Below are positions 3,383 through 32,024 of a stretch of 32,024 nt of DNA, piece by piece. Below the pieces are notes generated by a model. It saw nothing but the letters and a program-made list of their open reading frames with translations. It had not been told where the DNA came from and ran no database searches. The stretch is from Pirellulales bacterium (GTDB lineage Bacteria > Planctomycetota > Planctomycetia > Pirellulales > JADZDJ01), in contig DASRSD010000093.1 in the NCBI GenBank assembly GCA_035656635.1, positions 1-32,024 of the forward strand. Reading direction: 5' to 3'. Numbering within the stretch: position 1 is the stretch's first letter; each line of letters opens with the position of its first letter. The position numbers and the translations under genes are program-made.

Positions 3383-5881
3383 TTAGAATTGACCGGAAGT
3401 GCTGCTAGCCGATTCGGCCGACGTGCCCTGAGCGGGCAGTGTCCAGCCGACCGCCAGCCACCCATCCTTAGAAACCAATTGGGTCCATGGAAGTTGGCCG
3501 AGCTTTGCCCAGCGGCCTCGCAAAGTCATGCCTTCGGATTTCAATTGCTGCGGAAAAATGGGCTCTGAGTTGGCTTCTTTGTCCTCAGCTGGCGCTTCGC
3601 CAACTCCAAAAAATCGCCGAGGCAATGTTTTGGTAATCAAAGTGCTGCGGCGTGTTTTTTCGGCAAACGAAAGATTGGCTTCCGCATCCCCGGGCATCGG
3701 CAGGCCTTTGACGCCAAACTCACCATCGATTCTCGAAGCTCGGGCCACACCGCCCTCTAGTGTCAGTTTGTATGTGACATATACCTCTGCCGGATATGGA
3801 TTAACCACGCGTTGGCCATTATTATCCAGATTCGGTTGCGTAGTCGATTTAATGTGTAGCACGAGGCGGGCAGTGCCATCACGAAATTGAATATCGACGG
3901 GCTGTTCATCAGCGAATGTCATCCCTGCGTAATTGACTTGGACATCGCCGCGTTTGACGTCGGCCAGGAACTTCATCACATCGTTGTATGAAACCGATTC
4001 GCGCGAAAGGCCGGCCAAGTAGCGGTTAAACTGGTCTTCCGTCAAAGAGGCATTAAATACAGCGCGAGTCAGCGTATCGTACTCAGCCTGCGTGACCGTA
4101 ATGCTATAACGATCTTTCATCAGTGATTGGAACTGATCAAACGTGACGACTAGCGAATTGTCACGATGGTCGGCTGGAGCTGCCGCTTCGGCCAGACATT
4201 GCAAGTAGTCGTTGAACTCAGTTGGCTCATAGCGCATGCTGGCAGCATCCCGTACGGAGCGACGATAGGCCAGCGAGCGAACAGCGCGACCCGCTTCAAC
4301 AGCACCACCTAAATTATCGACCAATGATTCATGTAGTCGAATTGAAAGTTGTGTATTGGAAGCAGCATCCGGAGGCGGTGTAGTGGCGCCCAACTCATTT
4401 GCTCGAGCTTGCAAACCCACCACATTCAGCCAATCGCTTGTCGTGCTGAACGAAAGCTGCTGGGGAAACGCGTCTCGCCGCAGGAGCGGATTCCGGAACC
4501 GATCATCAAACGAACGATTCAAATTTGCCATCAAGGTGCCGGTGCGACTATCCATTCGATTTTCCAACCGCGCCTCCGCATGCTCGCCTGCTATTTCCTC
4601 GGCTTCATCTTTGCTGCCGTAAACGCGGTTCGTTGCGATGCGTGTGATCAATCGTCCTGCGCAAACATCAATACAATCGATCTCATTGTTAGTACAACAC
4701 TGCGCAGAAGCAGGATCGCCAATGAATGCGACTTCGTCAAACTCGACACGGTTCTTACCGGCTAACTGCGTGGTACCGTGGCTAAACACCGTGACCATGC
4801 CATGATAGCCGACAGTCTTGGACTTCGTTTGGCCCGTGAGTCCAATTTCTACGATCGCCTTGTCGCGGTTGGGAACCAGCGCGGCACGCACTTGGCCTGT
4901 GGTATGGCCGGAGCCTTCTACATCGGTTCCCAGAATGACATCTTTAATTGGGGTTTGTTCGTCGATTTGGTCGTTGATACCGCTAACAACAATGTCGCTG
5001 GAAACGTGGACTAGTAAATTCGATTGGCTGTCTTGTCCGCGCACCGCAGCAACCAATCCCGGCGCCTGTCCAGATTTCGAAATGCGGTCCAGAAGTTCGC
5101 CCAATTCTCGGCGGTCGAATGTAGCGGGCGATTTGGCAGCGGTTTCCAAACTAGCAGCTAACGCATCCAAGTTTTTATCGTAATCTTCTCGGGCTTGCGA
5201 ATTCTGAAAGGCCGCCAATAAGCCGGCATACGGCCGCAAAGTTGTTGTCACGCCACGAAATTGCGGCAATTCTAAACCCGAAAATCCAGATGAATAACGG
5301 GTTGCAAATGCATTGAGAATCTTTGGATCAGCGTTTAAATCTTTCTTTAATTCCGTCTGCAAATCGTCCAGACCAAGAAACTTCCGCCAGCTGGCGCCGT
5401 TGCTACCGGAACCCTTCAAATATCGATCTAATCGCCGTACAGCGGATGCTAATGCCACTTGCCGCTCCATAACGGTCGACTTTTCTACAGGCTTATAGTC
5501 GGATTTTGCCGCTCGAGCCATTGCGGGCAAGTCGGCCGCTTTCGGCTGCGAAAGGTCTTTGATCCAAGCGACGAGTGCCTTGCGTGTCGATTCGAACTGG
5601 GACAACCGCAATCCTGGCTCGCGCGCTTGGTATTTCTGGAGGATGTCCTTAACCACCACTGCGTCAGCATCCGGCCCTTTTTCAAGCTGCTGTTTCAATT
5701 CCGCAGTGCGCAGATATTTATTCCAGCCCGGCTGATTAGCTTGGCCAGAAAGCCAGTTGTCTTGATCCGAAAGAGCATTCCGAACTTGTTCACCAGAGCG
5801 AGTTTGGGCAGCAACATGGGACAGAAACAACAAACAAAGGCCAAAAACTGCTGCGGTTAGAAAGTGTGTTGGCAATCGCAT
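3383..5881 (-). CDS. Large secreted protein of unknown function (832 residues)
   Basis: The N-terminus (MRLPTHFLTAAVFGLCLLFL, then SHVAAQ) is a typical signal peptide with a cleavage site around VAA-QT. The ATG follows AAAGGA with a 9-base spacer, supporting this start. Residues about 30-290 are helical and contain repeated blocks of similar layout (xxNAxxxxxxWxxFLxLxxLxxxL), which may be a duplicated helical module: compare WNKYLRTAELKQQL and WRKFLGLDDLQTEL. Residues about 290-420 look beta-rich. A short cysteine cluster (AQCCTNNEIDCIDVCAG) sits near residue 400. The region about 640-760 again looks beta-rich. No enzyme motif is recognised. The protein is probably periplasmic or cell-surface and looks like the large uncharacterised exported proteins common in planctomycetes. 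The start lies divergent from the gene at 6296, leaving a shared 414-base upstream region. Confidence 0.8.
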   Translation of the reverse strand: MRLPTHFLTAAVFGLCLLFLSHVAAQTRSGEQVRNALSDQDNWLSGQANQPGWNKYLRTAELKQQLEKGPDADAVVVKDILQKYQAREPGLRLSQFESTRKALVAWIKDLSQPKAADLPAMARAAKSDYKPVEKSTVMERQVALASAVRRLDRYLKGSGSNGASWRKFLGLDDLQTELKKDLNADPKILNAFATRYSSGFSGLELPQFRGVTTTLRPYAGLLAAFQNSQAREDYDKNLDALAASLETAAKSPATFDRRELGELLDRISKSGQAPGLVAAVRGQDSQSNLLVHVSSDIVVSGINDQIDEQTPIKDVILGTDVEGSGHTTGQVRAALVPNRDKAIVEIGLTGQTKSKTVGYHGMVTVFSHGTTQLAGKNRVEFDEVAFIGDPASAQCCTNNEIDCIDVCAGRLITRIATNRVYGSKDEAEEIAGEHAEARLENRMDSRTGTLMANLNRSFDDRFRNPLLRRDAFPQQLSFSTTSDWLNVVGLQARANELGATTPPPDAASNTQLSIRLHESLVDNLGGAVEAGRAVRSLAYRRSVRDAASMRYEPTEFNDYLQCLAEAAAPADHRDNSLVVTFDQFQSLMKDRYSITVTQAEYDTLTRAVFNASLTEDQFNRYLAGLSRESVSYNDVMKFLADVKRGDVQVNYAGMTFADEQPVDIQFRDGTARLVLHIKSTTQPNLDNNGQRVVNPYPAEVYVTYKLTLEGGVARASRIDGEFGVKGLPMPGDAEANLSFAEKTRRSTLITKTLPRRFFGVGEAPAEDKEANSEPIFPQQLKSEGMTLRGRWAKLGQLPWTQLVSKDGWLAVGWTLPAQGTSAESASSTSGQF

Positions 5882-10057: not shown

Positions 10058-11194
10058 TCATTCTAGCAGGGGTTCACCCATCCACATTGCCAGCGGAATA
10101 AAAATCAGTAGTGGAAGCCAAGCAGCGAGTGCCGGACTGATTAAGTAACTGGAACCCAGGTACTGACAGGCATAAACAACCACATAAAATCCCACGACCA
10201 ACGACACGCATAACCCAATCGAGAAAAAAACATTCCGACTATATCGCGATAGCAGCAACGGCAAGCCCAAAAACAATAGCACCACGTCTAATCCTGGCTG
10301 TACCATGCGGGCATGAACCGCTACCCGTACATCGGAGCCAAAATTCAAACTCGGGTTGTGTAGGCCTGCCACCAACTCAGGCAGTGAAGCGTTACGTCGC
10401 CAATCGTCGGCGTTCGCTAGATATTCGAAAGTTATGTCACTAACGACAAAGCATTCGTCCGGGGCCAGCCACGGATAATCGTGCGGCGTAAGGAGCACTG
10501 GCTCTCCATTCAGGCTAAGTGTTGGTTTGGATGCAATTTGCTTTGGCAGCGTTACGCCCTTGAGCAAATACCCATTAGCATGTTGCATGTTATGCGGCTG
10601 ATATAGCGCTTTGCCAGCGACCAACTGCTTTCCATAGACATCCAGATCGGTCGGTAATGCGAATGACGGTTTTTCGACACGCTGCTCTTTGGCAATGGTT
10701 TGCTTACCCCGCAAGATGATGTCTGTTTTGTTGTCGGTGCGCGGAGTCATTTCGTGCGCAGCTTCTCCGCCTAGGTCTTGCGCCTGACCGGTTCTTAAAT
10801 GGTCGCGGATGGCCGGGATGACAATTTCTCGATTTACAGCCGCTAAAGTGGCTAACACGATCACCGCAATGACTACGGGCTTAATAATCCGCCATTTGCG
10901 AATCCCGGCGGCCTGTAGCGCAATCATTTCATTGTAGCGCTGAAACATGGCGATTGTGAACATCGCGGAAATTAATGTTAGGATGCCGCTCGTACGATCA
11001 AAGAAGCCAATAGTTTGATAACCGTAGTATTTGGCGATGATGGCCAAAAGATTACCGTGGTCGCCGGCAAATCGCATGAAACTGTCGAGCTGGCCAAAAA
11101 TATCGATGACAATATACAGACCGGTCAAACTGCAAAAACAAATCAGAAAATTTTTCAGAAACTGCCGTAATAAATAGCTATCGAGAATTCGCAT
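10058..11194 (-). CDS. LptF/LptG-type permease (YjgP/YjgQ family)
   Basis: The family supplies the membrane subunits of the Lpt system, which extracts lipopolysaccharide from the inner membrane and passes it towards the outer membrane. The frame is open further upstream (to 11452), but the family-like sequence begins at the ATG at 11194 with MRILDSYLLRQFLKNF, and this gives 378 residues, close to the usual length. The start of membrane helix 1 (FLICFCSLTGLYIVID), the FFDRTSGILTLISAMFTIAMF region and the hallmark MIALQAAGIRKWRI are all present, followed by a large periplasmic domain and three C-terminal helices ending LLIFIPLAMWMGEP. No Shine-Dalgarno sequence is visible. Usually LptF and LptG are encoded as a pair; only one is here, so the partner must be elsewhere. 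I cannot tell F from G. Confidence 0.85.
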   Translation of the reverse strand: MRILDSYLLRQFLKNFLICFCSLTGLYIVIDIFGQLDSFMRFAGDHGNLLAIIAKYYGYQTIGFFDRTSGILTLISAMFTIAMFQRYNEMIALQAAGIRKWRIIKPVVIAVIVLATLAAVNREIVIPAIRDHLRTGQAQDLGGEAAHEMTPRTDNKTDIILRGKQTIAKEQRVEKPSFALPTDLDVYGKQLVAGKALYQPHNMQHANGYLLKGVTLPKQIASKPTLSLNGEPVLLTPHDYPWLAPDECFVVSDITFEYLANADDWRRNASLPELVAGLHNPSLNFGSDVRVAVHARMVQPGLDVVLLFLGLPLLLSRYSRNVFFSIGLCVSLVVGFYVVVYACQYLGSSYLISPALAAWLPLLIFIPLAMWMGEPLLE

Positions 11195-21960: not shown

Positions 21961-22548
21961 CTATGGGCTGCCGCCGCCCGATGAATCATCGTCTTGCTGG
22001 AATGCCTTCACCTGCGGCTTTGGAATGCTGGTCATGAAGCCGTTGTACCAAGTGTTGACGCCAGCAACGTTCTCGGCAGGCGTGGTAGCAGGTTCCAAGT
22101 TACTTACCAACACGGGCGGCATGGGGCCAGGGCCCACCATTTGAGCCGTGGCTGCTTGCGCTGTCGCCAACCGCTTAGCAGTCACATCTTCGGTCCAACC
22201 CTGGGCAACAAACACGCTCCGGAACGCAACCGGGTTGCGGGTTAAAATTTCGTGCACTTTCAATTGGCCCGCTGGTGATAGCTTCGTGTTACCGGACTCA
22301 AAGTGGGCATCGCCCAATAAATCTTGTGTTTCCCATCCCTTGGCCACTTGGGCATCGACAACATTCCATACGCTAGCAGTGTCTACATCGACAAACGGCT
22401 TGGTCCACGCATTATTACGGTGCCAATCGACCCAAAAATTATGCCACGGGCTGTTGGGCTGATAACCATTCGAAACATCGCCAGCCAGCCCCGGGGTTGT
22501 CACACCAAATAATAAGGCAACCGTAATGGCAATCAGTGGACGGAGCAT
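21961..22548 (-). CDS. Secreted Tad-locus protein with a weak OmpA-like region
   Basis: The N-terminus (MLRPLIAITVALLFGVTTPG, then LAGDVS) is a signal peptide, and the ATG has the strong ribosome binding site AGGAGG eight bases upstream. Residues 35-60 are rich in Trp, His and Asn (SPWHNFWVDWHRNNAW). Residues about 80-135 (LLGDAHFESGNTKLSPAGQL, KVHEIL, then QGWTEDVTAKRLATAQAATA) follow the strand-helix-strand-helix spacing of an OmpA C-terminal peptidoglycan-binding domain, but the signature residues are mostly replaced, so binding is doubtful. The tail is acidic and Gly/Ser-rich. The gene sits between tadC and the TPR lipoprotein gene, where other Tad loci often have accessory envelope genes. 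Function unknown; a role in anchoring the Tad machine in the periplasm is inference. Confidence 0.72.
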   Translation of the reverse strand: MLRPLIAITVALLFGVTTPGLAGDVSNGYQPNSPWHNFWVDWHRNNAWTKPFVDVDTASVWNVVDAQVAKGWETQDLLGDAHFESGNTKLSPAGQLKVHEILTRNPVAFRSVFVAQGWTEDVTAKRLATAQAATAQMVGPGPMPPVLVSNLEPATTPAENVAGVNTWYNGFMTSIPKPQVKAFQQDDDSSGGGSP

Positions 22549-22753: not shown

Positions 22754-23740
22754 TTACTTATGTCCCTGCATCACAGGGAACATTTCGCGAACCATGGTGA
22801 TAGCAGCCGGGCCGACAAGCACCACAAAAATGCCCGGGAAAATGAAGATCACCAAAGGAAAGATCAGCTTCACCGCGGTTTTGGCGGCTTTTTCTTCTGC
22901 TAGTTGGCGCCGCCGCGTGCGCATCGAATCACTTTGCACACGTAGCGCCTGAGCGACGCTGGAACCAAACTTATCCGCCTGAATTAATATGGCCGCCAGG
23001 CTGCGCACGTCATCAACCCCGGTGCGTTCCCCTAGATCGCGCAGCACGTCGTTGCGGCTTTTACCCATCTGCAAGTGAAAATTACACAGGCCGAATTCCT
23101 CGGAAATTACACGCGCGGTGCGGCGCATTTCCTCCGTAACTTTGCGCATCGCCTGATCTAATCCCAGGCCTGCCTCCACACAAACCACCAACAGATCAAG
23201 CGCATCGGGCAAGGTGAGGAAAATGCTTTGTTTGCGCCGGCGACCAATAAACCAAACAACAAGGTCCGGAAGATAGAAAAAAAACGATGCGACTATAACT
23301 GTGTAGATCAACGAATCAGTATTGGCGCCTTTGATCAGGACAATGCTGCCGCCGCCCAAAAACAAGCCGGCCATGAGCCCGGCAAACTTCAAGCCCAAGA
23401 ACGTCCCCGCCACGGCGTCGCCTCGGAAGCCAGCTTGCGAAAGTTTTTGCTTGAGCTTGCTGGTTTCAACCTCCGTTTTCGGTTGCAAGGGAGCTGAGAA
23501 AACGGGAGTCGCTTTCTCCAGCATTTTGGACATCGCGTCTTGCTTTTTGGCTCCCTTGCCAAGTTTTTCGCGGCGGCGGTTTAAAGGATTGCGCAATTCC
23601 TCCAAGCGCTCGGTGGTTCGATCTCCTTTGCCGGCAAACACGTTGAGCACCCAAAACACGATGACCGCAAACAGGCCGAAGACAGCAATCGGCACAATTC
23701 TTTCCATCGTGAGCAGTGCATTGGCAATGAGCAGAATCAT
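22754..23740 (-). CDS. tadC: TadC, inner-membrane platform protein of the Tad pilus
   Basis: The 328-residue protein has the type II secretion F (T2SSF) domain of the Tad class. After two N-terminal helices comes TLPDALDLLVVCVEAGLGLD, the hallmark LPDALDLL of TadB/C proteins, followed by EMRRTARVISEEFGLCNFHL, then DVRSLAAILIQADKFGSSVA and the C-terminal helix pair KLIFPLVIFIFPGIFVVLVG. The VCVEAGLGL and KFGSSVAQALRVQSDSMR motifs and second position after cpaF match TadC rather than TadB. TadC and TadB are thought to form the inner-membrane platform driven by the CpaF ATPase. The first ATG, at 23740, gives MILLIANALL; an alternative at 23707 would start MERIVPIAVFG, and neither has a clear ribosome binding site. 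The start lies 91 bases downstream of the tadB stop. Confidence 0.9.
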   Translation of the reverse strand: MILLIANALLTMERIVPIAVFGLFAVIVFWVLNVFAGKGDRTTERLEELRNPLNRRREKLGKGAKKQDAMSKMLEKATPVFSAPLQPKTEVETSKLKQKLSQAGFRGDAVAGTFLGLKFAGLMAGLFLGGGSIVLIKGANTDSLIYTVIVASFFFYLPDLVVWFIGRRRKQSIFLTLPDALDLLVVCVEAGLGLDQAMRKVTEEMRRTARVISEEFGLCNFHLQMGKSRNDVLRDLGERTGVDDVRSLAAILIQADKFGSSVAQALRVQSDSMRTRRRQLAEEKAAKTAVKLIFPLVIFIFPGIFVVLVGPAAITMVREMFPVMQGHK

Positions 23741-23831: not shown

Positions 23832-24797
23832 CTAAACTTTGATATTCACAATTTTTCGGATGACTAAAGCGCCCAAAATTTGCATCACAACCCCGCCGGC
23901 CAACATCTTTTTGCCGATGGGGTCAGTGAACAGCACGGTCACATAATCGGGGTTCAGGTAGTAGACGGTCGCAAACAGCACGGGCGGCAGCGCCAACAAC
24001 ACAATTCCAGATAAACGACCTTCGCCGGTTAGCGCCTGCACTTGTCCCCAAATGCGGAAACGTTCGCGAACCAGACTGCCAATTTTATCGAGGATCTCGG
24101 CCAAATCGCCGCCGGTCTGACGTTGCAACACCAGGGCTGTGCAAAAGAATTTCAAATCCAGGTTCGGAACGCGATTGGTCAGGTTCTTCAGTGCTTCGTC
24201 GAGCGAAATGCCCAAATTTTGTTCTTCGTAACAGCGCTGAAATTCGATGCCAATCGGCGCTTTCATTTCTCCCGCCACCAAATTGAAGCCCGCGCTCAAA
24301 CTGTGTCCCGCGCGCAGCGCCCTGGCGATGAGCTCTAAAGCATCGGGGAGCTGCTTTCCAAAGGCGCGCAATCGGCGGCGGCGGCGGAACAACAACCAAA
24401 ATAATGGCAACAAACCAGCCAGCACGAAAAAGACCGGAATGAATGCGGGATTCAGGCCCGTGGCAACCGCCGCGACCGACCCGGAAACACCCATCACCCC
24501 GCTAATGATGCAGAACTTGGAGGGCGTCAGCGACGTGTCGGCCTGCACAAACAACAAACTGATTTGGCGGAAGCTCCCCAGAAATTCAGCAAAGGCCCCT
24601 TGTTTAAAGGATAACGGTTGGCTGAGCACACCCGCATCTTGCAGAATATTTTTAGCTCCACCGGCTTTATTCGCAGTCAGCAAAGCTAAACGATCTTCGT
24701 TGCGGCTCGATTGGTCACTGCGCAGTAGCAACGCCACGCCGCCGACAAGTGCGGCGACGGCAAAAAATGCAGCAATCGAAATCAGCAGAGGGGACAT
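23832..24797 (-). CDS. tadB: TadB, inner-membrane platform protein of the Tad pilus
   Basis: The protein of 321 residues starts with a membrane helix (LLISIAAFFAVAALVGGVAL), then a cytoplasmic stretch, two helices around residue 110, and the T2SSF domain: KQLPDALELIARALRAGHSL with the S-L-S-A-G-F motif that follows, GIEFQRCYEEQNLGISLDEA, FCTALVLQRQTGGDLAEILD, and a final helix pair. The GGDLAEILD motif and the QVQALTGEGRLSG segment are typical of TadB. Together with TadC it should form the core around which the CpaF hexamer turns. It follows cpaF by 86 bases on the same strand. Confidence 0.9.
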   Translation of the reverse strand: MSPLLISIAAFFAVAALVGGVALLLRSDQSSRNEDRLALLTANKAGGAKNILQDAGVLSQPLSFKQGAFAEFLGSFRQISLLFVQADTSLTPSKFCIISGVMGVSGSVAAVATGLNPAFIPVFFVLAGLLPLFWLLFRRRRRLRAFGKQLPDALELIARALRAGHSLSAGFNLVAGEMKAPIGIEFQRCYEEQNLGISLDEALKNLTNRVPNLDLKFFCTALVLQRQTGGDLAEILDKIGSLVRERFRIWGQVQALTGEGRLSGIVLLALPPVLFATVYYLNPDYVTVLFTDPIGKKMLAGGVVMQILGALVIRKIVNIKV

Positions 24798-24883: not shown

Positions 24884-26215
24884 TTAGCACTGCAACATGG
24901 TTCGTTGGCGAAATGCACTGGCGGGCAAACGGACACCTGCCCGTTCCAAACGTTCCATAAACGTGGGACGAATCCCTGTCGCTTCAAAACGACCCACGGC
25001 ACGGCTTGCTTCGTCAATTCCATCCTGGCAATACAGATAAATGTCCTGCATCACGACCGTTTCCTGTTCCATTCCCGTGATCTCGGTAATATGAGTTATT
25101 TTTCTCAGCCCGCCTTGGAGGCGATTGGCTTGAATGATCAAATCGACCGAGCTTGCAATCTGTTGGCGCAAGGCCTTCAAAGGCAATTCGAATCCGGCCA
25201 TGGTGATCATGGTTTCAATGCGCGAAATGGCGTCGCGCGGCGAGTTGGCGTGCAGGGTGGTCATTGATCCTTCGTGACCGGTATTCATGGCCTGCAACAT
25301 ATCAAGCGTTTCCGCTCCGCGGCACTCGCCGATGATCACTCTTTCAGGCCGCATACGCAGGGCGTTTTTCACCAAATCGGTAGCGGTAATTGCCCCTTTG
25401 CCTTCGATGTTCGGTGGCCTGGTCTCCAAGCGTACAACGTGTTCTTGCTGGAGCTGCAATTCGGCCGCGTCTTCGATGGTCACAATGCGTTCATGACCGG
25501 GGATAAAGCTGGACAAAGTATTTAGCAATGTCGTTTTACCAGAGCCCGTACCGCCGGAGATGAGGATGTTCAGCCGCGCTTTGATGGCGCCTTCCAGCAG
25601 CATGACCATTTCCGGCGTGAATGCTTTATAGTTGAGCAGGTCTTCCAACTTGAGTGGATTGGCGCCGAAGCGACGGATGGAAACAGCAGCTCCATCCAAT
25701 GCCAACGGCGGAATGATGGCGTTTACACGGCTGCCATCCGGCAACCGGGCATCAACCATCGGGCAGACTTCGTCCACCCGGCGTCCCACGCGCGACACAA
25801 TTCGATCGATGATTTGCAGCAGGTGCGAATTGTCGCGAAATTGAACGTTGGTTTTTTCCAGCTTCCCGCGACGTTCGACATAAATGTGCTTGGGGCCATT
25901 GATCAAAATATCGCTGATCCCCGAATCTTTTAGCAGCAATTCTAGCGGGCCTAGGCCGAACGTTTCGTCGAGCACTTCTTCGACCAGGCGATCTCGCTCG
26001 CTGCGATTCAGCAGATGATCTTCCGTGTCGCACAAGTGCTCCACGACGAGCCGAATTTCCCGACGCAACACATCGCCTTCGAGTTCACCCACGCGCGACA
26101 AATCGAGCTTGTCGACCAATTTGGTATGGATCCGACGCTTCAAAGCCTCAAAATCGGAGGACGAAGTTTTATCGCCTGGACGAGAAACAGTCGGCATGGG
26201 TTTAATCGGCGGCAT
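24884..26215 (-). CDS. cpaF: CpaF/TadA secretion ATPase of the Tad pilus
   Basis: This is a type II/IV secretion ATPase that powers pilus assembly at the cytoplasmic face of the inner membrane. The 443-residue protein has the N-terminal region with [20 protein letters not shown], the D-G-S-R-V-N motif ([13 protein letters not shown]), Walker [10 protein letters not shown] at residues 221-229, the aspartate box [10 protein letters not shown], Walker B-type [11 protein letters not shown] at 292-302, and the histidine box TTLHANS at 319-325. All catalytic elements are intact. The N-terminal 20 residues are variable and two ATGs (residues 1 and 7) could start; no Shine-Dalgarno sequence helps. 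It lies between cpaE and tadB, the standard order for Tad loci. Confidence 0.95.
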
Positions 26216-26386: not shown

Positions 26387-27610
26387 CTATTTTTTGCTGC
26401 CAAACAATCCCTTCCACCGCGAGCCTTTTCCTGCTTTGACGCTTTCCTCGATATTGGCGGCTGAATTTTCGGATACCGCGCCGGAGCTGAACCGCTCGGC
26501 CATTTCGACGATCGCTTGCGTGATCGCTGCTTTGGCCGCATGCTCTAAAAGCGGCACGCCATTGTTGCGCACTTCGGACATGGTGCGATAATCGTTCGGC
26601 AGTTCCCAGAAAATTTCGCGGCCGATGGTCTCTTGCGCCTTTTTGGAGCTGATTTGCGACGCATCCAGCCCCACCCGGTTGACGACGATTTTCACCTTCT
26701 CTTTTAATCCCTCGATTTCGCCGAACGACATCATCAACCGAACCACATTTCGCAAACACGGCAAATCAAGCTGGGTTACCAACAACACTTCGGTGGCCGT
26801 TTCCAGTGCAACCATGTCCAAGGCGTTGTAGCCCTTGGAAAGGTCGATGATTAAATGCGTAAAGGTCGCCTTCAACAAACCAATCATTCGTTGCAGATCT
26901 TCCGTAGTGATCTGGGCGGCGTCCGCTAATTGAACCGGGCGCGGCAACAGGAACAGCCCGGACGAATGCTTGGTCAGCGAGCGCTTGAGAAGCGTGAAGT
27001 CAAGTCGTTCCACATTTTGGGCCACGTCGACCAGGGTATAGTCGGGAATCGTGTCGAGAAACACATCGGCATCGCCGAGACTTAAATCGAGATCCACGAG
27101 GCAAACCGAGTTCTTCGAATCCGCAGCCAATGCGCAACCTAAGTTGACTGCCAGGCTGGTAGTGCCGACTCCGCCCGTAGCTCCGCACACAGAAATCACC
27201 TGGCAGCCACGAACTTTGCCTTCCCCCTTGCCAAACTGACGCTCGCTCAATCGCCCAAGAGCACCAACTAAATCTTCAATTTTAAGCGGCTTGGGCAAGA
27301 ACTCTTTTGCGCCGGCACGCATGGCGCGCAGGATCAAACTGCCATCAGTCGATCCGCTAACGACCAGAATGCTGCACTGAGGCGATGCCGCCGCCAACTG
27401 CTCGACCAGCTTCAACGCTTTGTCCGGATCAGCATCGAGAGCGACAACGCCAATATCGGGATGCGTTTGCGCAATGACATCCGCGAAAAACTCGTAGCGG
27501 GAGCATTCCGCTTCCAACCACACCATGTCCAGGCCAAGCAAAATCGACTTGAGCGATTCCCGTGATGGATCGCTAGGGTCGACAATGGCTAGCCGTAAAA
27601 CGTTAGTCAT
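26387..27610 (-). CDS. cpaE: CpaE/TadZ: receiver-like domain plus MinD-type ATPase
   Basis: CpaE/TadZ proteins localise the Tad machine to its site in the cell. Residues 1-120 form a receiver-like domain (LRLAIVDPSD, VVALDADPD with a possible phosphoacceptor at D59, ILVVSGSTDG, and FLPKPL with the conserved lysine). Residues 135-385 form a MinD/ParA-type ATPase with the P-loop CGATGGVGTTSLAVNLG, where the lysines of the standard deviant Walker A motif are absent and a threonine stands before the T-S pair. This is common for TadZ proteins and may mean slow or no ATP hydrolysis. The motif SVCLVDLDLSLGDADVFLD follows. The C-terminus ends with a basic tail (WKGLFGSKK). The gene is followed, after 171 bases, by cpaF. 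Confidence 0.92.
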   Translation of the reverse strand: MTNVLRLAIVDPSDPSRESLKSILLGLDMVWLEAECSRYEFFADVIAQTHPDIGVVALDADPDKALKLVEQLAAASPQCSILVVSGSTDGSLILRAMRAGAKEFLPKPLKIEDLVGALGRLSERQFGKGEGKVRGCQVISVCGATGGVGTTSLAVNLGCALAADSKNSVCLVDLDLSLGDADVFLDTIPDYTLVDVAQNVERLDFTLLKRSLTKHSSGLFLLPRPVQLADAAQITTEDLQRMIGLLKATFTHLIIDLSKGYNALDMVALETATEVLLVTQLDLPCLRNVVRLMMSFGEIEGLKEKVKIVVNRVGLDASQISSKKAQETIGREIFWELPNDYRTMSEVRNNGVPLLEHAAKAAITQAIVEMAERFSSGAVSENSAANIEESVKAGKGSRWKGLFGSKK

Positions 27611-27794: not shown

Positions 27795-29774
27795 CTAGTT
27801 TAATACGTCATATCCAACCGGCCCGATGAAACCAGGCGAGCCGCCCGAAGGAATCGCCCCGTTTGCCGGATACTGATTTTGCACCGTAGGCGGTTTGTAA
27901 CGGTTATCCGTACTGGATGAAACGGATGGCGTGGCAGACGGCGGGGATGCCACGGCAGGTGGCACAGCATTGGGTAGGCGTGCAATCCGGCTGGTTTGAT
28001 TCATGCTATTGCTGGTCGTATTGCCCGATCCAGGTGCATAACCAGATGACGTCGGCCTGGCAGGCGGAGGTGGGGATGGAATGGGTTCCGGCGATGCGGG
28101 AACGATACCGCCAGGCATCGGTCCCATCATAAACGGCGCGCCTTCGGGTCCATATCCTGGGCCTTCGCGCAAGTCGCCTGAGCCACAGGCGGGGTTGCAG
28201 CCATAAGGACCACACGGACCCTTTGAAGGCACTTCGTTGTAACCTTTGAAATACAGGCCACAATCACTGGGAACATCGGTATGCATGCCGGGGAAGCACT
28301 GCGGAACTTCGCAGGGATCCAGTGCTTGGACAATCTCAGGCGTAACCAGGAATAACAATTCTACTTCTTCTTCTGTCTGCTTCACATGACGGAAGGCTGC
28401 GCCAACGTAGGGCATTTCACCCAGCCAAGGGATTTCCTGTTTTTCTGCATTCAACCTCTTTTGCACCAATCCTGCGATGGCCAACGTTTGCCCTGCTCTC
28501 ATTTCCACGCCGGTATCTACCTGACGTAATGTGAAAGCGGGGGACTCTACGCCTGGCGCAATCTCAAAACTTTGCGTGGGATCAAGTTCGCGATCAATCG
28601 GGCGGACTTCCAACCGAATGTTTCCATTCCCCAGGACGATGGGCACAAAGTCAACCGTAATTCCGGTGTCTTTATAGGCTACGCTAACACCGTTCAAAGT
28701 GGAGTTGGCCGGATAGGGAATTTCGCCGCCAACTTTGAACTGTGCCGGACGACCGCTGACGGTAACCAGCGTGGGATCGGACAAGACCTTCAACAAATCT
28801 TCCTTTCGCAGGGCATCCAGGAAGCCAAAGAAGGCTGTATTGTTCTTCACCAAGCCAAAGCGAACCGTGTCGCCCAACGCGGAGGGTGCCGCGGTGCCGG
28901 CAACCGTTCCAGGAGCAAGGAGATTGCTAATGCTGGACGCTAGAAAACTTCCGCCGTTAACGGAGGCGAAGTCAAAGCCTAACTCTCGCAGCTTCGTTCG
29001 CGACACTTCTGCCACCTTCACGTGCAACATGATCTGTTGCACGCCGCCCACCTGAATGTTCGGCACGACCTTGGGATAATAATCTTGCGCGATTTGAATA
29101 ATTTGGCTGATTTGATCGGCGCGATCGACAAAACCAGTCAACAGCACGCTGCTGGCCATTGGACGAACACGCAAGTTAGCGGCAGGAAATTCTGCGCGAA
29201 GCAGTTCCGTCAACTCGCGCGCGTCGCCAGAGACCACGCAATCGACGGTATAGATTTGGCCTTTCTCGTTCCACAAATTGATTTGGGTTACCCCGGCTTT
29301 TTTGGCCAATACCTGAATTTCGTTGGGAGACAGCGCGGTCAATTCCAAGATTTCACGATTATTAACCTGGGCGCGAGGAATGTTTTGGTCCAGTGTTAAA
29401 ATGCGGCTGGCGTTGACCGTCATTTCCATCCGTTCCGAGGGGCCCTGAATGTGGTGAATCAAATCGTTTGCCACAGGCGCGAAACCCGACGGAATTGAAA
29501 GATCGTTGGAATGTTGCGGATCAGCGGCAGGGCTTTGTATCGCCCCCGGTGTTTGAGTTACGCCCGGCGTTTGAAATGCGCCGGGAGTTTGAATGGGACC
29601 AGGCGTCTGAATAGCGCCAAATGCCGGAGCGGGCGGCATTGTCCGAATCGGATTCGCGGATGGCAGCGGAGCGTTTAACTGCTGAGCGTATGCATTCTGA
29701 TTTACAGTGCATGCGATGACGATTGCGGCCATTGTGCGCGCAGCAGCAACCTGTCGGAAATTGCGTGAGAACAT
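27795..29774 (-). CDS. cpaC: CpaC/RcpA secretin of the Tad pilus
   Basis: The secretin forms the outer-membrane pore for the pilus fibre. A 30-residue signal peptide ends near QNAYA, and GAGGGGG stands before the ATG. Residues about 52-82 are a five-fold repeat of x-Q-T-P-G. The N0-like Pil_secretin domain (ILTLDQNIPRAQVNN) and a BON/N1-like region (SVLLTGFVDRADQISQI) follow, then the secretin core (QQIMLHVKVAEVSRTKLREL, KVLSDPTLVTVSGRPAQF, KVGGEIPYP, and the end motif EIPWLGEMPYVGAAFR with VELLFLVTPEIV at 471-482). Beyond it is a Pro/Gly/Cys-rich extension of about 170 residues, longer than I expect. It carries several CysX pairs, so it may form disulfides, as in an outer-surface module. The gene follows cpaB by 163 bases. 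Confidence 0.93.
   Translation of the reverse strand: MFSRNFRQVAAARTMAAIVIACTVNQNAYAQQLNAPLPSANPIRTMPPAPAFGAIQTPGPIQTPGAFQTPGVTQTPGAIQSPAADPQHSNDLSIPSGFAPVANDLIHHIQGPSERMEMTVNASRILTLDQNIPRAQVNNREILELTALSPNEIQVLAKKAGVTQINLWNEKGQIYTVDCVVSGDARELTELLRAEFPAANLRVRPMASSVLLTGFVDRADQISQIIQIAQDYYPKVVPNIQVGGVQQIMLHVKVAEVSRTKLRELGFDFASVNGGSFLASSISNLLAPGTVAGTAAPSALGDTVRFGLVKNNTAFFGFLDALRKEDLLKVLSDPTLVTVSGRPAQFKVGGEIPYPANSTLNGVSVAYKDTGITVDFVPIVLGNGNIRLEVRPIDRELDPTQSFEIAPGVESPAFTLRQVDTGVEMRAGQTLAIAGLVQKRLNAEKQEIPWLGEMPYVGAAFRHVKQTEEEVELLFLVTPEIVQALDPCEVPQCFPGMHTDVPSDCGLYFKGYNEVPSKGPCGPYGCNPACGSGDLREGPGYGPEGAPFMMGPMPGGIVPASPEPIPSPPPPARPTSSGYAPGSGNTTSNSMNQTSRIARLPNAVPPAVASPPSATPSVSSSTDNRYKPPTVQNQYPANGAIPSGGSPGFIGPVGYDVLN
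29539..29610 (-). repeat. 18-bp tandem repeat, four units, in the secretin gene
   Basis: Four units of 18 bases each end TTTGA or TCTGA on the plus strand; a partial fifth follows. On the coding strand each unit gives a six-residue piece of the form Q-T-P-G-x-x. The units have diverged at synonymous and nonsynonymous sites, so the array is not freshly expanded. It forms a flexible linker between signal peptide and the first secretin domain. Confidence 0.8.
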
Positions 29775-29937: not shown

Positions 29938-30948
29938 TTATAAAGTCGGCTGTGCGGGCGATTGATTTGGGGAAGGGGTAACTACTGCAGCAGACGATTG
30001 GCCGCCGCTGCCAGTGGCGTCGACACTGTTATTTTGCCAACGGTCATCCTTGTTTTTTCGGCTGAATTCAACCCGACTCAGTTCGTCACCCTTTTGGAGC
30101 GTCATTGTAAAATGTTCTTCGGGATTCAGCGTTGACGCCGGCGTTGGTGCTGTTGACGGGGCAGAACCGGTTTGTTGTTTCAACCAATCGAGAATTCCTC
30201 CGCCAGATTTTGTCAAATCCTGGTCGTGGTTTCCTTTCGTTTTGCCAGTCAGAATCTCGTTTTCCTCGGTCCCCGACGTATCCGCCACTTGTTCGTCATT
30301 GGGATTGCGAAGCACAAGCCGAATATGCCCTAATTCGCTGGCCAGCGCAATCGTTTCCGCCTCACCGGGCGTGACAAGCAGCGATACCGTCTTGGCCGTA
30401 ATCGATTCGTCGGATTTATTGCCCTCCGTCGGTCGCCACTGTTCGTTGATGGCAAAGACGCGAATGTTTTGCAAAATGGTTTTCGCTACCTGGCTCTGCG
30501 AAATCGTTCCATGCTTGATGGAGACGACAATATCGACCCGATCGCCCGGTTGCAATAAATTTCCCGTGGCGCTGACTGCGTCCGCCGGCACGGCCACCAC
30601 TCGATAACCATGTGGAATTTCTTGAATGCGGTTGTCGACAGCAAACTTTGCCTTGCGGATCGGCTCACCCACCAAAATGATTCCACCCGCGCGTTGATTT
30701 TCCAGTTCCTTGATATCGTGGACCACGTCGGCAGGAATCTTTTCCTTAGGCCAATCTTCCAGTTGCACGTTTTTGTCCGACAGGGGCTCGTTGACCTTGA
30801 TATCGTGACTGGCCACCAGGATTTTATCCATCTCCACCACGGGGGCCTGGTCGTGGTTGCGGTTTTGCATCACCTGGCTAATGCCGATGGATGCCACCAA
30901 ACCACAGCCTAAAGCCAGCAACAACAAAATCAACGATTTGGGTCGCAT
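29938..30948 (-). CDS. cpaB: CpaB/RcpC Tad assembly protein (SAF domain)
   Basis: The 336-residue protein begins with a single membrane-spanning helix (KSLILLLLALGCGLVASIGI), followed by a SAF domain near residues 42-105 (KILVASHDIKVNEPLSDKNV, then EPIRKAKF) and the RcpC-type region (YRVVAVPADAVSATGNLLQP, GDRVDIVV, and TVSLLVTPGEAETIALASEL, then GHIRLVLRNPND). CpaB/RcpC is a periplasmic protein associated with the secretin and may bind peptidoglycan-like sugars through the SAF fold. The C-terminal 100 residues are disordered-looking, rich in Ser, Pro, Thr and Gln. The ATG is preceded by only a weak purine stretch. It starts 80 bases after the tadE stop and is followed by the secretin, the usual order in Tad loci. 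Confidence 0.93.
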   Translation of the reverse strand: MRPKSLILLLLALGCGLVASIGISQVMQNRNHDQAPVVEMDKILVASHDIKVNEPLSDKNVQLEDWPKEKIPADVVHDIKELENQRAGGIILVGEPIRKAKFAVDNRIQEIPHGYRVVAVPADAVSATGNLLQPGDRVDIVVSIKHGTISQSQVAKTILQNIRVFAINEQWRPTEGNKSDESITAKTVSLLVTPGEAETIALASELGHIRLVLRNPNDEQVADTSGTEENEILTGKTKGNHDQDLTKSGGGILDWLKQQTGSAPSTAPTPASTLNPEEHFTMTLQKGDELSRVEFSRKNKDDRWQNNSVDATGSGGQSSAAVVTPSPNQSPAQPTL

Positions 30949-31028: not shown

Positions 31029-31544
31029 TTACTGTACGCCCTCTCGCCGCATCACGGACGTCGCCGACAGGGTTGTTGAACCAAGGTACAACGGAGTCGG
31101 CAACCAACTGACTTTTGAAAATGGAATCGATACGCTCACTGTCACCGGGCTACCGGTAGTCTGGCTGCTCGGTGGATTTGGAGTTACCGTAATGGTTGTG
31201 AAGGTTGTGGATATTTTGGCGGCGGTCAAATAATTGTTGACTGCCGTTTGAACATCCGAATAGGTCGATCCGTCCAGCACGCCCACTCGGGCGCCTTCCC
31301 GCGCAGCATTCGTAATGACTTGCTGCACCATCACCATTCGGCCGTATTCAACCATGCCGAATACGAGCAGGAAAAATACCGGGGCAACGATTGCGAATTC
31401 AACGACAGCGGCCCCTCGTCGGTGTCTTCGGCAAGTCCGGCAGAACTTCTCCACTTTCGGCGCAGGTGCCGTCAGATTTACCGAAGTTACCTGGCTTTGA
31501 CCGCGCAACGCACGGTGATAGCATCGCAAAGTATTCATGTTCAT
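31029..31544 (-). CDS. tadE: TadE-like pseudopilin
   Basis: I choose the ATG at 31544 because it overlaps the TGA that ends the upstream prepilin-peptidase frame in an ATGA arrangement, typical of translational coupling; the longer frame starts at a TTG. The 171-residue protein has the TadE signature RRGAAVVEFAIVAPVFFLLV followed by FGMVEYGRM: a prepilin-like cleavage region with a glutamate at the fifth or so position after the Gly, then a hydrophobic helix. The periplasmic part carries VITNAAREGARVGVLDGS, found in many TadE/TadG proteins, and a beta-rich C-terminus. TadE is a pseudopilin processed by the same peptidase as Flp pilin and needed for pilus formation. A basic leader of about 45 residues before the helix is longer than usual; the next ATG at 31538 hardly shortens it. 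Confidence 0.9.
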   Translation of the reverse strand: MNMNTLRCYHRALRGQSQVTSVNLTAPAPKVEKFCRTCRRHRRGAAVVEFAIVAPVFFLLVFGMVEYGRMVMVQQVITNAAREGARVGVLDGSTYSDVQTAVNNYLTAAKISTTFTTITVTPNPPSSQTTGSPVTVSVSIPFSKVSWLPTPLYLGSTTLSATSVMRREGVQ

Positions 31545-31693
31545 AGCAGCAATCCAGCCCAAAAGAAGTAAGCAATGGTGCCAATGGCGATCGGAATGCC
31601 ATAAGGCAGTAGCAGCATCGTGCTTTTTCGTTCCGCGGCAATGGCAGCTAATTCGGTGGGTTTACCGATGGTAATTACCTCGCCGACAATCGA
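31541..31693 (-). pseudogene. C-terminal 50 codons of prepilin peptidase, beyond an in-frame TGA
   Basis: Directly after the TGA at 31694-31696 the same frame continues for 50 codons to a TGA overlapping the tadE start. The peptide reads from SIVGEVITIGKPTELAA through RKSTMLLLPYG to IPIAIGTIAYFFWAGLLL, which is the expected C-terminal loop and last membrane helix of TadV/CpaA-type peptidases. No start codon fits independent translation. The stretch is therefore the end of the upstream gene cut off by one stop codon, whether by mutation, sequencing error or recoding. Confidence 0.8.
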
Positions 31694-32024
31694 TCAGAAT
31701 TGATCTTTATGGTGTTTCCATTTATGCCGCAGGAGGACCATTGTCAGAGCAATCACTCCGCCGACCAGCGCCGATATACAGAACGAATAAAATGTGGTTG
31801 TGGCGCCAACCCAAGCTCCCACGCCTGCTAGCAGTTTCACATCTCCGGCGCCCATGCCGCCAATTGCGTATGCTGGCATCAGTAACGCCAATCCCACCAC
31901 CGTGCCTAACAAGCTTTCCCCTAATCCTGCCCAGCCTGCTGTGACGGCGCCGAAAACCCATCCGCTAATAATCATGGGAAACGTAAGCCAGTTGGGCACG
32001 CGTAATTGCCGACCGTCGATCACG
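31694..32024 (-). CDS. Prepilin peptidase TadV/CpaA, cut at the window edge and by an in-frame TGA
   Basis: This A24-family aspartic peptidase should cleave the leader peptides of Flp pilin and TadE at the inner membrane. The visible part starts within the first catalytic region (IDGRQLRVPNWLT, catalytic Asp) and contains the second, GMGAGDVKLLAGVGAW, with the G-x-G-D motif. Membrane helices flank both. The gene runs off the right edge, so its start is not visible. The frame meets TGA at 31694-31696 after KHHKDQF, while the family-like sequence continues in the same frame for 50 codons. The truncated product would keep both catalytic aspartates but lose the last helix. It leads the Tad gene run here, upstream of tadE. 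Confidence 0.88.
   Translation of the reverse strand, partial: VIDGRQLRVPNWLTFPMIISGWVFGAVTAGWAGLGESLLGTVVGLALLMPAYAIGGMGAGDVKLLAGVGAWVGATTTFYSFCISALVGGVIALTMVLLRHKWKHHKDQF

Follow-up and report, generated by a model that had tools for sequence, protein, structure and literature searches.

The short prepilin peptidases TadV, CpaA and FppA of the Tad/Flp (type IVc) pili have an A24 domain with a VIDG motif and a GxGD motif, and their genes are placed in the Tad locus between those for the Flp pilins and tadE. Processing of Flp prepilins by TadV has been described as essential both for assembling the pilus and for its function; a Micrococcus luteus ΔtadV mutant formed no Flp assemblies (PMC4322843). 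In Myxococcus, the major pilin was still polymerised after deletion of the peptidase of a Tad-type locus (PMC12075869). The Pirellulales tadV/cpaA gene described here shares with these systems the domain, both motifs, the short form and the place in the locus, but differs from them in that, in this assembly only, a TGA codon precedes the region encoding the last helix. The window analysed (32,024 nucleotides) is the entire contig C93 of a metagenome-type genome of 4.90 Mb in 190 contigs, with a completeness of 95.6% and a contamination of 2.0%; the named records closest to it belong to Pirellulales and other Planctomycetota.

The interrupted peptidase gene and its locus

The tadV frame matches Peptidase_A24 (PF01478) with E=3e-19 and a score of 69.8 bits, against a curated cut-off of 26.5. 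Both catalytic aspartate motifs are present, VIDG and GMGAGDVK (the latter of GxGD type), and both aspartates are invariant in 34 relatives. The setting is that of a TadV peptidase: genes for TadE, RcpC, a secretin, a TadZ-like protein, TadA and two T2SSF proteins follow downstream (Table 1), and Flp pilins are encoded on the adjoining contig C129. The one feature of a TadV that is missing is a complete C-terminal helix in a single open frame, which is interrupted by the TGA at 31696-31694. No sequence relative of the peptidase was found among solved structures, and a structure model of the orthologue from a genome of the same genus (G001), of medium confidence (pLDDT 75), was used only for placing helices.

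A sequence-only reading of the window had located the in-frame TGA at 31694 inside a prepilin peptidase gene, and its coordinates are correct. It had also taken the 50 codons that follow for the end of a TadV/CpaA peptidase, and these codons are indeed homologous to that end: across all 160 codons the gene is 84% identical to its G001 orthologue, which contains no stop. Two further proposals, that the ancestral gene reached 31541, its stop overlapping the tadE start as ATGA, and that truncation at the TGA removes the last helix, likewise hold.

Table 1. Features of the tad locus in the window
Feature	Position	Strand	Remarks
tadV/cpaA prepilin peptidase frame	31541..32023	-	160 visible codons and original stop; 5' end cut
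In-frame TGA	31694..31696	-	codon 110 of the visible frame
50-codon tail past the TGA	31544..31693	-	conserved cytoplasmic stretch, last membrane helix; purifying constraint
ATGA overlap of original stop and tadE start	31541..31544	-	TGA 31543-31541, ATG 31544-31542
tadE	31029..31544	-	intact; TadE PF07811, E=2.8e-19
rcpC/cpaB	29938..30948	-	intact
Secretin (rcpA/cpaC)	27795..29774	-	intact
tadZ/cpaE-like	26387..27610	-	intact
tadA/cpaF ATPase	24884..26215	-	intact
tadB-like (T2SSF)	23832..24797	-	intact
tadC-like (T2SSF)	22754..23740	-	intact

The 5' end of the peptidase gene is absent from C93, which stops at 32024, inside tadV/cpaA. The start of the gene (ATGCAT), ...CCCATGCAT, is found at the extreme end of C129 in the same genome, downstream of three Flp pilin genes, and about 70 bp, estimated against G001, are absent between the two contigs. 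Since C93 and C129 both end within tadV, the peptidase gene is the one at which the assembly broke. A search for second copies found a single tadV-like gene and a single tadE in the genome. The remaining Tad locus and the three pilin genes are intact, with no further sign of decay.

Several other frames were encountered in and around this locus. Between the Flp pilin genes and tadV lies a frame of 36-37 codons for a small one-helix protein (MYPAIPVEMYSGVVSLLSYFFTLVAVLVTLAVAARN), at 10175-10285 (plus strand) of C129 (locus L168) and at 14991-14878 (minus strand) of locus L084; a similar frame occupies a similar position upstream of tadV in some 18 other planctomycete loci, and may represent an overlooked small Tad-associated protein. 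The frame also occurs, with a tadV of Pirellulales type (68% identical), on a contig filed as Candidatus Nealsonbacteria (L013), which on account of these two genes has probably been binned wrongly. In the window, the tadC-like gene is followed by a 195-codon gene (21964-22548) that has no Pfam match and is 78% identical in G001. Elsewhere in the window are an open frame of 832 codons (3386-5881), with zero Pfam matches, and a gene for a 578-codon protein (1042-2775) with a PEP-CTERM motif at its C-terminus.

Conservation of the tail and age of the stop

Uninterrupted tadV genes in syntenic Tad loci are present in G001 (84% identity) and in a genome of the same family, G002 (76%). The site of the TGA is covered by 82 aligned orthologues, none of which has a stop there; the codon is mostly one for Phe, Leu or Trp and never one for Cys. 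An order-wide search of 297 genomes gave a match in 175, and among the matches listed an internal stop was seen in none of 149 other places. All the relatives compared have a sense codon at this place, and the idea that the 50 codons might be non-coding, with orthologues all ending at the position of the TGA, is contradicted by genes that all continue through them.

The tail itself bears the marks of selection. Alignment of 34 orthologues revealed 38 invariant positions, 12 of them past the TGA, and all 12 are kept here. For the tail, pN/pS is 0.22 against G001 and 0.18 against G002, compared with 0.16 between G001 and G002, both of which are stop-free; in all pairs the value is not higher than for the preceding 30 codons. 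The ATGA overlap is retained in G001, G002 and 30 of 80 other relatives. A tail still under constraint, unlike that of a long-dead gene, means that the stop either is recent or is absent from the real genome.

Nonsense substitution, consensus error or recoded UGA

The TGA is probably a nonsense substitution of the ordinary kind that arose recently in tadV/cpaA of the assembled population and acts as a stop. We infer that the allele exists in the organism and is no error of the consensus, although the pilin genes and the other Tad genes show no decay, and the assembly breaks within this gene, so that the base itself may be wrong.

Indeed, the break inside tadV makes a consensus error a serious rival, and there is an appreciable, though smaller, probability that the organism has a sense codon at this site and an intact peptidase. 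The contig ends 328 bases away, in the same gene, with further bases missing before C129; the fully conserved tail, the intactness of all other Tad genes and the lack of a stop here in any other listed relative also fit such an error. On the other side, the TGA is not at the outermost contig end, and no second interrupted gene was seen either in comparing the window with G001 or in a sample of 0.5 Mb, which suggests that errors in this assembly are infrequent. A search of the literature on stops in metagenome assemblies yielded nothing useful. Sequencing or assembly error, which the sequence-only reading had listed as an option, is therefore retained beside the nonsense allele, but the phase-like loss of piliation also listed there lacks support at the site, where neither a repeat tract nor an invertible element was seen, only a changed codon.

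That UGA is recoded or read through here, to give a full-length peptidase, is very unlikely, despite the intact and constrained tail. RF2 scored above its cut-off in the genome, which has 44 tRNA genes; all the anticodons read are ordinary, with one tRNA-Trp (CCA), and no suppressor tRNA is among the 44. Nothing above cut-off was found in the genome for selB or tRNA-Sec, and tRNA-Sec candidates proved to be ordinary tRNAs according to ARAGORN. All 60 matches to ABC_tran and all 6 to sulfatase are free of internal stops. A codon-usage scan of a sample of about 0.5 Mb (roughly a tenth of the genome), where by a rough count TGA ends 151 of 468 ORFs and is thus a common stop, disclosed no second convincing TGA-interrupted gene. 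Of seven other same-frame continuations that it picked up, three were separate adjacent genes, each with an ATG of its own directly after the stop; the other four, assessed by eye rather than by a family scan, seem to be open frames in the wrong frame. The checks that had been suggested for further in-frame TGA codons in conserved genes and for a suppressor tRNA, together with the search for selenocysteine machinery, contradict the recoding option at the level of the genome.

Each specific form of recoding meets its own obstacle. Genome-wide reassignment of UGA (codes 4 and 25) is contradicted by the retention of RF2, the lack of a UGA-reading tRNA and the uninterrupted conserved genes. Selenocysteine would require SelB and tRNA-Sec, neither of which scored above cut-off, at a site that is mostly hydrophobic and never Cys in relatives. 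Site-specific read-through would be expected to leave a stop conserved among relatives, and a sense codon was found in all of them (82 aligned, 149 places listed). A stem-loop does begin 11 bases past the UGA, but 17% of the windows of the operon fold equally well, among 80 relatives it is for the most part not conserved, and it also folds in the stop-free G001, so that as a read-through signal it is unremarkable for this operon. Partial read-through aided by the stem-loop, by which a little full-length peptidase would set pilus processing in this lineage only, is a shade more doubtful still. Scarcely credible is a division of the gene into two parts whose products cooperate, with the last helix translated from an internal ATG (residues STM) past the stop: there is one in-frame ATG before this helix, but such a start would omit the still-constrained conserved segment between the TGA and the ATG, and no listed relative has a split gene.

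Expected consequences and comparison with known systems

If the TGA is a nonsense substitution acting as a stop, translation would end after about 136 residues (109 in the visible frame and, by analogy with G001, 27 before it). The truncated product would keep both aspartate motifs but lack the last membrane helix and the conserved cytoplasmic stretch that precedes it, and would probably be inactive or unstable, in which case processing of the Flp pilins and of TadE would be poor. Synthesis of TadE would also fall, as ribosomes would no longer reach the ATGA overlap through which the two genes would be coupled. A premature stop in the upstream gene of overlapping pairs from Haloferax volcanii abolished expression of the partner in nine of nine cases, and overlapping pairs from Escherichia coli were coupled with one exception (PMC6728339). 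These results, from H. volcanii and E. coli rather than from a planctomycete, make it plausible that TadE translation is reduced here.

The sequence-only reading had suggested that truncation could abolish the whole Tad system. Such an outcome is possible, but is made less than certain by a second A24 peptidase, encoded by a 428-codon frame on contig C49, which may partly replace the interrupted TadV and, in that it may do so, also weighs against the reading favoured here. A real allele would suggest that this uncultured planctomycete includes cells in which Tad piliation is lost or diminished, and would serve as a natural test of whether translation of tadE depends on that of tadV through the ATGA link.

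The likeness to known UGA recoding, by selenocysteine or codes 4 and 25, lies in an in-frame UGA with a conserved continuation; the differences are that here the machinery is absent, no second example was found in the genome and the stop is not conserved in relatives. Recoding should not be deduced from a single assembled consensus in which a frame is interrupted by a stop close to the break between contigs. From known nonsense alleles the present case differs in that the fixation, or the reality, of the stop rests on that one consensus. In other respects it resembles the nonsense alleles and young pseudogenes of bacterial surface-structure genes, in which, as here, there is a single stop, the frame and tail are kept and the neighbouring genes are intact.
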